Source of the DNA: an uncultured Dehalococcoidia bacterium
Lineage (GTDB): Bacteria > Chloroflexota > Dehalococcoidia > Lucifugimonadales > UBA3495
Assembly (NCBI GenBank): GCA_958296385.1
Contig: OY282494.1
Location: 1,409,416 to 1,473,415, forward strand
Reading direction: 5' to 3'
Length of the DNA: 64,000 nucleotides
The translations under genes were made by a program, and so were the position numbers. Below, one piece after another: positions 41,563 to 63,125 of this stretch (its first letter is position 1; each line of letters opens with the position of its first letter). The notes beneath the pieces were generated by a model. The model saw nothing but the letters and a program-made list of their open reading frames with translations. It searched no databases and was not told the origin of the DNA.

Positions 41563-42987
41563 ATGCCTGCCAACGAACTGCATTATCTGTCGGCCTGGGA
41601 ACTGTCGGGCCTAATCCGCAGCCGGGAAATCTCTCCGGTGGACGTGGTGGAGGCTTGCCTGGCCCGGATTGAGGCTACGGAGCCGACGCTGAACTCGTTT
41701 ATTACGCTGCTGCCGGAGCAGGCGCGGGCCGCCGCGCAGCGGGCCGAGGCGGAGATTGGACGGGGCAGCTACCGGGGGCCGCTGCACGGCATTCCGGTGG
41801 GGCTGAAGGACTTGTTCAATACGGCGGGGGTACGCACGACGTCCGGCACGCGCATTTACGATACGCACGTTCCCGATGAGGATTGCACGGTGGCGGCCCG
41901 GTTTAACGCGGCGGGGGCGATTTTGCTGGGCAAGCTGAATATGCACCCGCTGGCCTTTGGGCCGACGGGGGAGAACGCCGATTACGGGCATATGCACAAC
42001 CCCTGGAACCCGGAGCGGATTACCGGCGGTTCCAGCGGGGGCAGCGGCTCGGCGACGGCGGCGGGGCAATGCACCATCACCATGGGCAGCGACACCGGCG
42101 GCAGCGTGCGGATTCCGGCGGCGTTGTGCGGCATCGTGGGCCTGAAACCCACCTACGGGCGCATCAGCCGGGCCGGATTGACGCCGCTGTCGTGGTGCCT
42201 GGACCATCCCGGCCCGATGACGCGCACCGTTGAGGACGCGGCTTTGGCGATGAACGCCATCGCCGGGCCGGACCCGAAAGACCACGTTACCGCGCCGGGG
42301 CCGGTTCCCGACTACACGCAGGCGCTCACGGAGGACGTGCGCGGGCTGCGTATCGGGGTGGTGCGGGAGTTTTTTGACGGGCCGCTGGATGGGGAGGTGG
42401 CAAGTCTGGCGCAGCAGGCCATCAGCGCGCTGGGCGAGATGGGGGCGGAAATCGTGGAAGTGTCGCTGCCGATGTTCCAGTACGCGCAGCCTATCAGCAA
42501 CGTGATACTCAGCGCGGAGGCTACCGCCGCGCATCGGGACATCCTGCTCAGCGACGGGGACCAGCTGTATCCGCAGGTGCGCGACCGGCTGGAAGAGGGG
42601 CTGTTCATCACGGCGTCGGAATATCTGCGGGCGCAGCAGGGGCGGCAGGTGTTCTGCCAGCAGGTGGGGCGGCTGTTGCAGGACGTGGACTTGCTGGCGG
42701 GGCCGGTGGAGCCGGTGACGGCGCCGGAAATACTGGCGCGGCGGATTGAGATTGACGGGTCACTCGACGGGGCCGGAGAGCCGGCGGTGCCGCTGCTGAC
42801 GCGGTACACGCGGGTGTACAACATCACGGGGTCGCCGGCCATCTCGGTGCCGTGCGGGTTCGCCAGCGACGGGCTGCCGGCGGCGCTGCATCTGGCGGGG
42901 CGCAACTTTGACGAGGCCACCGTGCTGCGGGCCGCCTACGCCTACCAGCAGGCCCACGACTGGCACCGCCAGCGGCCGCCAATCTAA
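41563..42987 (+). CDS. Amidase signature family protein (GatA/AtzE-like)
   Basis: A 474-residue amidase-signature hydrolase. The Ser-cisSer-Lys triad is visible: Lys in VGLKDLFNTAG (about residue 87), the cis-Ser in GGSSGGSGSATAAG, and the nucleophile Ser in GSDTGGSVRIPAALCG. GLKPTYGRISRAGL follows as in GatA and relatives. The upstream small gene looks like an AtzG-type subunit, and no gatB or gatC is present, so a small-molecule amidase or biuret-like hydrolase is more likely than Glu-tRNA amidotransferase. ATG 41563 has GAGG 9 bases upstream. Confidence 0.88.
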   Translation: MPANELHYLSAWELSGLIRSREISPVDVVEACLARIEATEPTLNSFITLLPEQARAAAQRAEAEIGRGSYRGPLHGIPVGLKDLFNTAGVRTTSGTRIYDTHVPDEDCTVAARFNAAGAILLGKLNMHPLAFGPTGENADYGHMHNPWNPERITGGSSGGSGSATAAGQCTITMGSDTGGSVRIPAALCGIVGLKPTYGRISRAGLTPLSWCLDHPGPMTRTVEDAALAMNAIAGPDPKDHVTAPGPVPDYTQALTEDVRGLRIGVVREFFDGPLDGEVASLAQQAISALGEMGAEIVEVSLPMFQYAQPISNVILSAEATAAHRDILLSDGDQLYPQVRDRLEEGLFITASEYLRAQQGRQVFCQQVGRLLQDVDLLAGPVEPVTAPEILARRIEIDGSLDGAGEPAVPLLTRYTRVYNITGSPAISVPCGFASDGLPAALHLAGRNFDEATVLRAAYAYQQAHDWHRQRPPI

Positions 42988-58118: not shown

Positions 58119-58151
58119 TCCGTATCAGAGTCATAGTCAGAGTCAGGGTCA
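58119..58151. repeat. Hexamer repeat giving tandem in-frame stops after pgk
   Basis: On the minus strand TGACCC TGACTC TGACTA TGACTC TGA: the pgk stop is followed by four more in-frame TGA codons at 6-base spacing. Confidence 0.9.
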
Positions 58152-59345
58152 GGCGTCGGGCAAGGCGGCGATGCCGGGCAACTGGCGGCCCTCGAGAAAC
58201 TCCAGCGCTGCGCCGCCGCCGGTGGATACGTGGGTCATACCGTCAACGAGCTGCAAAGACTCGATGGCCTCAGCGGTGGAGCCGCCGCCCACCACCGTAG
58301 TTACGCCGGGCCGCCCGGCGATGGCCTCGGCGATGGTGCGGGTGCCGGCGCGGAACCGTTCCATCTCAAACACGCCCATCGGGCCGTTCCAGATGATAGT
58401 TTGGCAAGCGGCCAGCGCAGCGGAGAAAGCACGGGCGGTTGCGGAACCGACGTCCATTATGTACCAATCATCGGGTACGGCAGCAACGGATACGGTTTGG
58501 ACGCGGGCGGGTTCGGGGGCGAATTCGCTGGCGGCGGCAACGTCCTGGGGCAGATGCAGCGCAACACCGGCGGCGGCGGCGCGGGCGATGACGGCGCGGG
58601 CGAAATCAAGGCGGTCGGTTTCCACCGGCGATGCGCCGACGGGCTTGCCCTGCGCGGCCAGAAAAGTAACCGCCATACCGCCGCCGATGAACAGATGGTC
58701 CAGGCGTTCCAGCAGGTTTTCCAGCACGAGTATTTTATCGCTGACTTTGGCGCCGCCCATCAGGGCCGCCAGCGGACGGCGGGGCGCGGCCAGTGCCTGG
58801 CCCAAGGATTCCACCTCCCGCTGCGTGAGCAGGCCCATGGCGGCGGGCAGTATAGATGGGACGCCTACCGTGGAGGCGTGGGCCCGGTGGGCGACGGCGA
58901 AAGCGTCCATCACAAAGCAGTCGGCAAGGGATGCCAGCTGTTGGGCAAAGCCGGGGTCGTTGCTTTCCTCGCCGGGGTGAAAGCGCAGGTTCTCCAGCAG
59001 GCACACCTGCCCCGGCGTCATTGCGGACACCGCCGCCGTTACCGCATCGCCCACGCAATCGGCCAGGCTCAACACCGGACGGCCCAGCAGGGCCGCCAGC
59101 CGGTCGCCGACTGGGGACAGGCGCAGGGTTTCGTGAACTTGTCCGGCGGGCCGGCCCAGATGGGAGCAGAGCAGCACCTTGCAGTCTTGGGCCAGCAGAT
59201 GCTCAATGGTGGGCAGCGTAGCCCGCAAGCGCTGGTCGTATTGGTCAATGACGTCAACGCCCTGCTCGATGGGGACGTTGAAATCAACGCGAACCAGTAC
59301 CGTCTTACCGGCAACGTCCAGTTGGGACAGGGTGCGCTTGGCCAT
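58149..59345 (-). CDS. pgk: Phosphoglycerate kinase
   Basis: Produces ATP from 1,3-bisphosphoglycerate. At 398 residues it has normal length. LVRVDFNVPIEQG, the basic SHLGRPAG, LLENLRFHPGEESND and the ATP-site strings GGAKVSDKI, NGPMGVFEMERFRAGT and GGGSTAEAI are complete. ATG 59345 has GGGAGC about 9 bases upstream; an ATG 21 bases earlier is unlikely. It lies 52 bases after the prenyltransferase-like gene. Its stop is followed by repeated in-frame TGA codons. Confidence 0.97.
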   Translation of the reverse strand: MAKRTLSQLDVAGKTVLVRVDFNVPIEQGVDVIDQYDQRLRATLPTIEHLLAQDCKVLLCSHLGRPAGQVHETLRLSPVGDRLAALLGRPVLSLADCVGDAVTAAVSAMTPGQVCLLENLRFHPGEESNDPGFAQQLASLADCFVMDAFAVAHRAHASTVGVPSILPAAMGLLTQREVESLGQALAAPRRPLAALMGGAKVSDKILVLENLLERLDHLFIGGGMAVTFLAAQGKPVGASPVETDRLDFARAVIARAAAAGVALHLPQDVAAASEFAPEPARVQTVSVAAVPDDWYIMDVGSATARAFSAALAACQTIIWNGPMGVFEMERFRAGTRTIAEAIAGRPGVTTVVGGGSTAEAIESLQLVDGMTHVSTGGGAALEFLEGRQLPGIAALPDA

Positions 59346-59379: not shown

Positions 59380-59407
59380 GATTAGACCAGGACTTGATTA
59401 GACCAGG
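59380..59407. repeat. 16-bp-period duplication spanning the prenyltransferase-like stop
   Basis: gattagaccagg occurs at 59380-59391 and 59396-59407. The second contains the TAA stop on the minus strand; the first is its downstream copy. Confidence 0.9.
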
Positions 59408-60309
59408 GCCGCAATGTTGCCGGCGGTTACCAGTTGGGCAGCCCATTCCAGCGACGGCGGGTTGGTGAGGGCGGCAGCGTCCGCAACCGACGGGGCGGCG
59501 GCGGCAATCAGGGCTTGGGCGGCGTCCTCGGCGTAGCGGCGGGAATCCTGCTCGTCCAGAATGGCTACGATGCGCCGGGCGTCGTCGGGTTCCAGTACGC
59601 GTTTCATATAGATGCCGCCGAGTTCCCGCTTGGTGGCGGTGGGCGCGCGCTCGAGGCTGTGGATGAGGGGGAGGCTTTTCTTTTTGTTGAGGACGTTGCT
59701 GGGGGTAAAGCCGTCGCCGCGCGCCCCCCACAAGTCGGCAACGTCGGCGTAGATTTGCAGGGCCATGCCCAGACGGGCGCCCCATTGCCGCAGGGCGGCG
59801 CCGGTGTCGGCGCCGGCGGCCAGCGCGCCCAGCTCGGCGGCGCAGCCGGCCAGCGCGCCGGCCTTGCGCTCAATCATGTCCAGATAGGCCGCCTCGGTCA
59901 CCATCAACTCGTCCTGGTGCATCAAGTCCATGTACTGCCCCTCGCACAGGGTGAGGCAGGCCCGGTCCAGCGCGCGCAGGGCGGCCAGCACGGTCTCGTC
60001 GGGGCTGCCGGATTCGGACAGACGCATCAGGACGGAGCGGGCCAAAGCGTGCAGCCCATCGCCGGCGTTGATGGCCTGCGACGGCCCCCAAACCCACCAG
60101 ATGCTGGGGCGGTCGCGGTTGGGGTCAACCCGCCCGGCCTGCACGTCGTTATGCACCAGCACAAAGTTGTACACCAGCTCAATAGCGGCGGCGGCGGGCA
60201 CGGCGGGACGGTAATCGCCGGCCACGGCGTCGGCGGCCGCCAGCGTCAAAGCGGCGGGAAAATGCAGAGGCGTAACGCTGGCGTCGGCGGGATTGCCCCG
60301 CTCGTCCAC
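59398..60309 (-). CDS. Polyprenyl-synthetase-like protein with degenerate Asp motifs
   Basis: A protein of the polyprenyl synthetase fold (FPP/GGPP synthase relatives). Context strings are preserved: ELVYNFVLVHNDVQAG, WWVWGPSQAINAGDGL, GKSLP-like KKKSLPLIHSLE. The first Asp motif DDxxD reads NDVQA and the second reads ADVAD, so both lose key magnesium ligands. Coding similarity clearly continues upstream of the GTG at 60309 (AFESRAGLLYDILRYHLGW) to a TAA at 60466-60468, but no ATG, GTG or TTG lies in that 51-codon stretch. A non-standard start (for example CTG 60456) or a disrupted 5' end is needed. Possibly a non-catalytic subunit. Confidence 0.8.
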   Translation of the reverse strand: MDERGNPADASVTPLHFPAALTLAAADAVAGDYRPAVPAAAAIELVYNFVLVHNDVQAGRVDPNRDRPSIWWVWGPSQAINAGDGLHALARSVLMRLSESGSPDETVLAALRALDRACLTLCEGQYMDLMHQDELMVTEAAYLDMIERKAGALAGCAAELGALAAGADTGAALRQWGARLGMALQIYADVADLWGARGDGFTPSNVLNKKKSLPLIHSLERAPTATKRELGGIYMKRVLEPDDARRIVAILDEQDSRRYAEDAAQALIAAAAPSVADAAALTNPPSLEWAAQLVTAGNIAALV

Positions 60310-60436
60310 CCAGCCCAGATGGTAGCGCAGGATGTCGTAAAGCAGGCCGGCGCGGGACTCAAAAGCGCTCCGCAGGTAGCCGTCAACCGCAACGCGGCAG
60401 GCGTCGTATGTAAGTGTGCCGGTGATGATGTTCCCG

Positions 60437-60468
60437 CCAGTGCGTTGCGTTACCAGTACGTTGCGTTA
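60437..60468. repeat. 16-bp x2 tandem duplication at the tsaC/prenyltransferase junction
   Basis: ccagt(g/a)cgttgcgtta occurs twice with one mismatch, just before the coding similarity of the prenyltransferase-like gene; it introduces a TAA in that frame. Confidence 0.9.
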
Positions 60469-60484: not shown

Positions 60485-61096
60485 TTATGATAGCGTCGCC
60501 AGGATGTCGGAGTAAGCCAGTGCGCCCTCCCGGAGTAAGGACAGGCCGGTATCCGACACGGCTACGATGGTGCTGGCCTGGCCCTGAGGCGCCGGGCCAC
60601 AGGTTATCATACCATCAACGAGATGGCCCAGACGGCGGCGCAGTTCGGCGGCGTCGGTGACGTCGGGTTCGCCGGAGGGATTGGCGCTGGTGCCGGTGAT
60701 CGGCCGCCCCAACCGCCGGCACAACGCCAGCGGCGCCGGATGGTCGGGCATCCGCACGGCAATGGTATCCCGCCCGGCAGTCAACCGCACCGGCAAGCCG
60801 GCCATCGCCGGCAGCACCAGCGTCAGCGATCCGGGCCAGAAACGACTTGCCAGGCGGCGGGCCAACCCGCCAACGGAATCGCCAAGATTTGCCACCTGCG
60901 CCACCTGCGCCCAATCCGACACCAGAACGGGCAAAGGCAGATCAGCCGGCCGGCCCTTGACGGCAAACACCCGCTCCACCGCATCAGCATTAAGCGCGTC
61001 CGCCGCCAGCCCGTACAGCGTATCAGTAGGAATCGCCGCCACACCGCCGCCGGCAATGCAGGAAACAGCATCGGCTATTTGAGCATCCATAGACAT
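60485..61096 (-). CDS. tsaC: L-threonylcarbamoyladenylate synthase
   Basis: Makes threonylcarbamoyl-AMP for the t6A modification at position 37 of ANN-reading tRNAs. The 203 residues carry the YrdC/Sua5 motifs: AAIPTDTLYGLAADA, FAVKGRPADLPLPVL (KxR), FWPGSLTLVL, IAVRMPDHP and TGTSANPSGEP. It is single-domain, without the Sua5 C-terminal part. ATG 61096. First gene of the minus-strand housekeeping string as seen here. Confidence 0.95.
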   Translation of the reverse strand: MSMDAQIADAVSCIAGGGVAAIPTDTLYGLAADALNADAVERVFAVKGRPADLPLPVLVSDWAQVAQVANLGDSVGGLARRLASRFWPGSLTLVLPAMAGLPVRLTAGRDTIAVRMPDHPAPLALCRRLGRPITGTSANPSGEPDVTDAAELRRRLGHLVDGMITCGPAPQGQASTIVAVSDTGLSLLREGALAYSDILATLS

Positions 61097-61448: not shown

Positions 61449-61913
61449 CTACTGCGGGATGGTAAATACGATGCGCCCGTCGGCATCGTGGCCGTGATTG
61501 GCCAGCGCCGCCAGCGTCCGGTTACTTTGCTGCATTTCCGCGCGCAACGCCGCCATATCATCGGCCATCCGGTCAAACTTAGCGTCAACCCTGTCGGCCA
61601 ACGCGTCAATTTTCGCGTCAAACCTTATGTCCATAGCGTCAAACTTCCTGTCCATCGCATCAAACTTAGCGTCAACCCGATCGGCCAACGCATCAATTTT
61701 CGCGTCAACCTTATCGGCCAGCGCGTCAACTTTCGCGTCAACTCCGTCAACCCTTTTGTCCAGCCCGTCAAACCTTACATTCAGGTTGTTAACGTTGTTG
61801 GACAGGGTGCCCAGCATAAAGCCGCCTCTGACCAGCAGCACTATCAACGTGATGCCGACACCGGCTACGGTGGCGATGGCAACGGCGATGGCAATGGCGG
61901 TTGGGGCGTCCAT
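61449..61913 (-). CDS. Membrane-anchored coiled-coil protein, tandem copy 1 (longest)
   Basis: A 154-residue family member. N-terminal helix AIATVAGVGITLIVLLVRGGF, then a long regular coiled coil of 7- and 14-residue units (VDAKVDALADKVDAKIDALA..., RFDAKIDALADRVDAKFD), then the common tail MAALRAEMQQSNRTLAALA and GHDADGRIVFTIPQ. It has the largest number of heptads of the four copies. ATG 61913 follows GGAGAA; TTGACA lies at 61996-61991. A small IA-dipeptide run near the start also differs in length between copies (AIAIAVAIATV here). Function unknown; length change appears to come from unit gain and loss. Confidence 0.8.
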   Translation of the reverse strand: MDAPTAIAIAVAIATVAGVGITLIVLLVRGGFMLGTLSNNVNNLNVRFDGLDKRVDGVDAKVDALADKVDAKIDALADRVDAKFDAMDRKFDAMDIRFDAKIDALADRVDAKFDRMADDMAALRAEMQQSNRTLAALANHGHDADGRIVFTIPQ

Positions 61914-62071
61914 AAAGTTCTCCCGGCGTAACGGCGGATGCTTTGTGTCGGGTCAGCCGTAGCCACAGGCTACATTCGCCCTTTATCCACTGTCAAGGAT
62001 GCGTGTTCGCGAGGCAGCGTTCCGTTTCAGATGGTCTAGTTTGCCCAACGCCGGCCATTTTGCCATCCCTG

Positions 62072-62125
62072 ATGTCATTCTGAGCGCAGCGATGAATCTC
62101 GACAGCGTAGCAACGGCGTTGCCCC
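62072..62125. repeat. Half copy of the inverted-repeat element
   Basis: atgtcattctgagcgcagcg..atctcga..agcgtagcaa..cgttgcccc matches the left arm and part of the core of the element at 44521 (a few differences); the right arm is missing. Confidence 0.85.
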
Positions 62126-62174
62126 AAAGCGTATGGACTTTTACGCCCGGCACTTATCCATCTCTCCCACCGGC

Positions 62175-62585
62175 TTACTGCGGGATGGTAAATACGATGC
62201 GCCCGTCGGCGTCGTGGCCGTGATTGGCCAGCGCCGCCAGCGTCCGGTTGCTTTGCTGAATTTCCGCGCGCAACGCCGCCATATCATCGGCCATCCGGTC
62301 AAACTTAGCGTCAACCCTATCAGCCAACGCGTCAATTTTCGCGTCAAACTTCCTGTCCATCGCATCAAACTTCGCATCAACCTTATCGGCCAGCGCGTCA
62401 ATTTTCGCGTCAACCCCGTCAACCCTTTTGTCCAGCCCGTCAAACCTTACATTCAGGTTGTTAACGTTGTTGGACAGGGTGCCCAGCATAAAGCCGCCTC
62501 TGACCAGCAGCACTATCAACGTGATGCCGACACCGGCTACGGTGGCGATGGCAATGGCGATGGCAATGGCGGTTGGGGCGTCCAT
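62175..62585 (-). CDS. Membrane-anchored coiled-coil protein, tandem copy 2
   Basis: A 136-residue paralog with the same transmembrane helix and tail as its neighbours. It keeps the segment VRFDGLDKRVDGVDAKIDAL found in copy 1 but lacks one set of units between KFDAMDRKFDA and ALADRVDAKFD. The IA run is AIAIAIAIATV. ATG 62585, SD GGAGAA, TTGACA at 62668-62663. Flanks and 5' leader (GTAGCC, cgacacaaagcatccgccg) are nearly identical to those of the other copies, indicating recent tandem duplication. Confidence 0.8.
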   Translation of the reverse strand: MDAPTAIAIAIAIATVAGVGITLIVLLVRGGFMLGTLSNNVNNLNVRFDGLDKRVDGVDAKIDALADKVDAKFDAMDRKFDAKIDALADRVDAKFDRMADDMAALRAEIQQSNRTLAALANHGHDADGRIVFTIPQ

Positions 62586-62768
62586 AAAGTTCTCCTGGCG
62601 TAACGGCGGATGCTTTGTGTCGGGTCAGCCGTAGGCACAGGCTACATTTGCCCTTTATCCGCTGTCAAGGATTCGTGTTCGCGAGGCAGCGTTGCGTTTC
62701 AGATGGTTTAGTTTGCCCAACGCCGTATGGACTTTTACACCCGGAGCGTATCACCATCGCCCACCGGC

Positions 62769-63125
62769 CTACTGCGGGATGGTAAATACGATACGCCCGT
62801 CGGCGTCGTGGCCGTGATTGGCCAGCGCCGCCAGCGTCCGGTTGCTTTGCTGAATTTCTGCGCGCAACGCCGCCATATCGTCGGCCATCCGGTCAAACTT
62901 AGCGTCAAACTTCCTGTCCATCGCATCAAACTTAGCGTCAACCCTGTCGGCCAGTGCGTCAATTTTCGCGTCAACCCCGTCAACCCTTACATTCAGGTTG
63001 CTAACGTTGTTGGACAGGGTGCCCAGCGTAAAGCCGCCTCTGACCAGCAGCACTATCAACGTGATGCCGACACCGGCTACGGTGGCGATGGCAATGGCGA
63101 TGGCGATGGCAATAGGGGCGTCCAT
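62769..63125 (-). CDS. Membrane-anchored coiled-coil protein, tandem copy 3
   Basis: A 118-residue paralog. The segment RFDGLDKRVD present in the other two tandem copies is absent, and the coiled coil is VDGVDAKIDALADRVDAKFD followed by AMDRKFDAKFDRMADD. The start reads MDAPIAIAIAIAIATV, with Thr5 changed to Ile. ATG 63125 with GGAGAA; TTGACA at 63208-63203. It is divergent from guaA, whose start is 156 bases away, so the promoters of the two share this spacer. Confidence 0.8.
   Translation of the reverse strand: MDAPIAIAIAIAIATVAGVGITLIVLLVRGGFTLGTLSNNVSNLNVRVDGVDAKIDALADRVDAKFDAMDRKFDAKFDRMADDMAALRAEIQQSNRTLAALANHGHDADGRIVFTIPQ

Follow-up and report, generated by a model that had tools for sequence, protein, structure and literature searches.

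A polyprenyl synthetase homolog of SAR202-type Dehalococcoidia with a probable AUC start codon

Introduction

The gene infC starts with ATT in E. coli and with ATC in Streptomyces (PMC5472188), and both its unusual start and the autoregulation exerted by IF3 are described in PMC5472188 and PMC13009471. Other reported cases include ccpN (AUA) and cvfC1 (AUU) of S. aureus, which carry conserved non-canonical starts of the class AUC, AUU or AUA (AUH) and for which reporters yielded ~10% of the AUG output in poor medium (PMC13009471), and Streptomyces sigR, whose GTC start is repressed by IF3 (PMC5472188). In vitro, IF3 reduced the yield of full-length product when a CAU anticodon was decoding AUU (PMC10158994). 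Conserved non-canonical starts outside infC are described as rare in these papers, and the literature searched named neither a prenyltransferase with an AUH start nor any SAR202 start codons.

Here we describe a prenyltransferase-like gene that shares its rare codon class with infC, the classic example of a non-AUG start, whose own-genome copy starts with ATC, preceded by GGAGGT and, further up, by an in-frame TAG, although infC encodes a translation factor and the present gene an enzyme homolog. Both ccpN and cvfC1 have a conserved AUH start behind a Shine-Dalgarno (SD) sequence, as in the prenyltransferase family, but those two starts were shown by ribosome profiling and reporters and have strong extended SDs, whereas the present start is read from sequence alone and follows a weak SD. 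The likeness to sigR would lie in a clade-conserved non-canonical start holding down one protein; the sigR codon is GTC rather than ATH, and its regulation was shown genetically. An AUH class kept across a marine bacterial family, with infC as an in-genome comparison, offers a test case for whether IF3 discrimination can serve as metabolic dosage control.

The locus and its reading frame

The window (the whole stretch of 64,000 nt analysed) holds tsaC (L-threonylcarbamoyladenylate synthase; 60485–61096, minus strand), the prenyltransferase gene and pgk (phosphoglycerate kinase, ATG start; 58149–59345, minus strand) consecutively on one strand, with a 58-nt spacer after tsaC. A consensus search found one promoter-like site above tsaC on the strand of the gene and none between tsaC and pgk, with region-wide counts of 2 promoter-like sites (0.8 in shuffles) and 3 terminator-like sites (5.0 in shuffles), which is consistent with a single transcript for all three genes.

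The prenyltransferase frame is open over 59398–60465 (minus strand) and is bounded by TAA codons at 60468–60466 and 59400–59398. As the original prediction stated, no ATG, GTG or TTG occurs between the upstream TAA and the GTG at 60307–60309, which is number 52 when the codons of the open frame are numbered from 0; this GTG is merely the earliest canonical codon and not the only GTG, as further GTG and TTG codons lie downstream. The claim that coding similarity extends 51 codons above it holds for the codon-usage signal, but protein similarity begins only at about the ATC at 60426, so that the GTG sits 39 codons inside the homologous protein, at residue 40. We propose, at a probability of about 0.86, an intact gene with its start at this AUC (60426–60424), yielding a divergent polyprenyl synthetase of 342 residues (59398–60426, minus strand; 342 codons plus stop). 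This ATC is the most likely start on its position in the ortholog alignment and its identity within the genus; the adjacent ATC (60427–60429), which other members of the genus do not conserve, is a less likely one. A rare start had been anticipated, an idea that is supported here, with ATC 60426 as the most likely codon rather than the CTG at 60456 that had been named.

The 16-bp duplication described earlier is real. Its two tandem copies (60437–60452 and 60453–60468, 15/16 identical) lie in the tsaC spacer, a short way above the proposed start; the first is next to the start within the leader, and the second overlaps the upstream in-frame TAA. The best duplex between the leader and the 16S tail (-5.9 kcal/mol) forms at GGCGGG (60433–60438), a weak SD-like element, and the leader measures 58 nt compared with 8–25 nt in 13 same-genus relatives. 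It is possible that the duplication shifted the SD in the window out of place or made it weaker.

Protein family and Asp motifs

The window protein matches PF00348 with a score of 113.7 bits, where the gathering cut-off is 27. Its best NCBIfam match is NF041169, the family 2 encapsulin cargo polyprenyl transferase, at 208.5 bits and below the cut-off of 450, and membership in that family was rejected on this score. The encapsulin shell model NF041162 had no match in the same genome, but the search was silent in every control genome too, so the absence of a shell gene is not established by it. An AF2 model built with 40 sequences reached a pLDDT of 90.3 and a pTM of 0.91, and the closest solved structure is 3nf2 (Foldseek TM 0.83, 30% identity; phmmer 1.9e-38). 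The protein shares fold and sequence with short-chain polyprenyl synthetases (PF00348; PDB 3nf2, 4gp1/4gp2 and 5jfq) but, unlike them, keeps the first Asp in neither of its DDxxD motifs.

Typical trans-isoprenyl diphosphate synthases carry two complete DDxxD metal-binding motifs. In the window protein, HNDVQA (60136–60153) stands in place of HDDxxD and ADVAD (59734–59748) in place of DDxxD, as had been noted from the sequence, and with both motifs incomplete it was not accepted as a catalytically typical member. None of the 47 family members has the first Asp in the first motif, whereas 19 of 43 orthologs outside the family keep it. All 47 have D or E at the second position, and the last position of this motif is A, S, N or I in the family. 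As for a paralog, the genome encodes two other PF00348 genes with the Asp pair kept in both motifs, one second motif reading DDYLG. The window protein probably represents the isoprenyl diphosphate synthase fold in a specialised or regulatory form whose metal binding is altered, and it may be a non-catalytic subunit.

Start codons across the family and order

Matches to the gene were obtained in all 147 genomes searched, and loci were taken for 90 orthologs, 47 belonging to the family of the window and 43 lying outside that family but within its order. The family comprises 50 listed genomes; three of them (G027, G043 and G047), where even the best match was weaker and resembled a paralog, were left out. 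Named relatives are metagenome bins of the SAR202 cluster, Dehalococcoidia and other Chloroflexota. Orthologs were registered on a conserved L-L-Y-D block, with the start codon taken 27 positions before it, and measured from there 88 of the 90 are 334–353 codons long; the exceptions are L049, cut by a contig end, and L081, which is mis-framed and was left out of the tree and the start counts (non-family n = 42), while remaining among the 43 non-family rows of the Asp-motif count.

At the aligned codon, 32 of the 47 family members, the window gene included, carry ATH (17 ATC, 10 ATT and 5 ATA), four carry ATG, GTG or TTG and 11 have other codons. The corresponding figures outside the family are 0 of 42 for ATH, 26 for ATG, GTG or TTG and 16 for other codons, with a canonical codon within three codons of the aligned start in 38 of 42 loci. 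No canonical codon lies within eight codons in 24/47 family orthologs versus 1/42 others, a looser measure than the exact-codon count because such codons often occur there by chance. Under the same measure, pgk has a canonical codon in 46/46 family and 40/40 other loci, counting those where its start could be placed. The tsaC control was noisy: it lacks one in 5/43 family and 9/33 other loci (8 skipped), although in all but one of these 14 a canonical codon occurs at a greater distance upstream. The exception, L028, is an observation in its own right: its tsaC has an in-frame TAG above an ATC, no clear SD and no canonical start upstream of the homology.

An AUC, AUU or AUA start is thus read as common to most of this SAR202-type family. 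Judged by eye, 13 of the 47 members apparently use ATG, GTG or TTG at or near the aligned place and two more (L018 and L037) have ATH after a small shift; the trait is therefore not universal, and the 13 all fall outside the genus of the window. A quick tree of 71 rows, built without L081 and with weak inner branches, implies six changes of the trait, which leaves the order of gain and reversion uncertain. In L009, L012, L030, L033, L036, L047 and L049 an in-frame stop lies 1–7 codons above the ATH with no canonical start between. A canonical codon is found near the ATH in 9 of the 32 AUH loci; GAGG precedes the ATC by 5–6 nt in eight of these nine, and in L006 a GTG adjoining the ATC is also at usable SD spacing. 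An SD 4-mer is present 4–11 nt upstream of 30/32 AUH starts, compared with 44/392 ATH codons that lie in frame inside these genes, the two loci without a perfect 4-mer being the window and L031.

Within the genus, all 13 relatives examined have ATC at the aligned codon, although eight of them also carry a canonical codon no more than 8 codons away from it, and over the 14 sequences in ungapped register the three bases are identical in 91/91 pairs. The codon before differs at 38–66% of sites and the four codons after at 46–66%, with constrained codons resuming five codons after the ATC.

For comparison, infC was searched in 60 genomes, of which 56 gave a match, and 31 loci across the order were read (L094, L135–L164). 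All 31 carry an ATH codon at the aligned start or one codon away from it (ATA in 25, ATC in 4 and ATT in 2), several also having ATG, GTG or TTG within 14 codons above the ATH, whereas the prenyltransferase has AUH at the aligned codon in one family only. The infC start region in the genome of the window reads TAG-CAC-AAA-TCC-AGC-GGA-GGT-GTC-GCC-ATC.

Translation from AUC and alternative explanations

The gene is most likely functional, with IF3 limiting, and perhaps tuning, its translation. The initiator tRNA would read AUC inefficiently and IF3, judging from infC, sigR and published work, would discriminate against it, and the two together would give a low, IF3-sensitive protein level in the apparent operon with pgk. 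The AUC start thus probably holds the protein at a low, controlled level, an AUH start being expected to keep it below the level of its neighbours. More tentatively, SAR202-type Dehalococcoidia may have placed this divergent synthase under IF3 control by changing AUG to AUC, AUU or AUA, with output following free IF3 or ribosome state and staying far below that of pgk, for example to dose a non-catalytic subunit modulating one of the two other prenyl synthetases.

The AUH start might instead be real and have no regulatory role, as a weak but tolerated start that is aided by reinitiation from tsaC and drifts among AUH codons. The short distance between tsaC and the start in many relatives, including the 13 same-genus leaders, fits this, as do the 13 family members that appear canonical. 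We consider it the less likely reading, since ATH at the exact codon in 32/47 members and an ATC that is invariant in the genus while the DNA around it has diverged argue for selection, and the SD is maintained in 30/32 AUH loci.

Translation from another codon, whether CTG 60456, GTG 60309, or by frameshift or read-through from tsaC, is very improbable. CTG can act as a weak start codon, and tsaC lies directly upstream on the same strand, but in the 14 same-genus sequences coding conservation is absent above the ATC, and the tsaC-stop-to-start distance ranges from -10 to 185 nt in 44 family loci and falls in all three frames (19/15/10), so the DNA above the start is not a coding extension. 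CTG 60456 was rejected because it lies above the point where coding conservation and protein similarity begin, and by eye no SD precedes it. GTG 60309 was rejected because a start there, well within the homologous protein, would remove two predicted helices (residues 7–22 and 28–36 of the AF2 model, whose first four ten-residue blocks have mean pLDDT values of 77, 97, 91 and 91).

Constraint on the protein was assessed by aligning 42 rows of the family. Measured against the other 41 rows, the window protein agrees at all 89 sites with 95% conservation and departs at one of the 119 sites with 90% conservation, a Tyr to Cys change at residue 10; 24 of the 42 rows have no deviation at columns conserved in all but one row, which makes the window protein as good as its relatives and not better. 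Least probable of all is a pseudogene that lost its start to the duplication, as suggested earlier, and whose Asp motifs are in decay. Although the duplication beside a non-canonical start, the weak SD and the Tyr to Cys change would suit a pseudogene, decay was rejected on the conserved residues and the codon-position divergence, the whole 342-codon frame is open, the first-motif change is family-wide and the 13 relatives with short leaders carry ATC as well. A relative with an ATG start and intact motifs, which would have spoken for simple pseudogenisation, was sought, and none of the 47 family members has an intact first motif, those with canonical starts lying outside the genus.

With AUC 60426 as the start, an apparently startless gene can be intact, and gene callers limited to ATG, GTG and TTG would truncate the prenyltransferase-like protein.

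Genome-wide scan and other observations

A codon-score scan of the genome containing the window covered 2,063,585 bp (about 63%) and 1,759 gene-like ORFs. A start deficit over 8 bits was found in 16 of them, with the window gene ranked 6th, and several of the 15 others look antisense or stop-interrupted by eye; in a smaller scan of 863,585 bp and 752 ORFs the window gene ranked first. Owing to a canonical codon 11 codons into the gene, infC came only 298th; the scan is insensitive and therefore gives no rate of AUH starts.

Several frames seen along the way are recorded here. At about 239870–240452 of contig G000:C1 (plus strand; L106/L107), a frame that we take to be DsbA/FrnE-like is broken by a TGA at the first Cys of its CxxC motif (DYV-TGA-PWC) and is a possible selenoprotein. 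On the same contig, at 42521, 129949 and 373477 (L097, L101 and L113), strong-coding frames start directly after an in-frame TAG and may represent either interrupted genes or read-through. Within the window, three tandem paralogous small ORFs at 61449–63125 (minus strand), reading MDAPTAIAIAIAIATVAGVG... and containing VDAKFDAM/VDAKIDAL repeats, perhaps encode membrane-anchored coiled-coil proteins.
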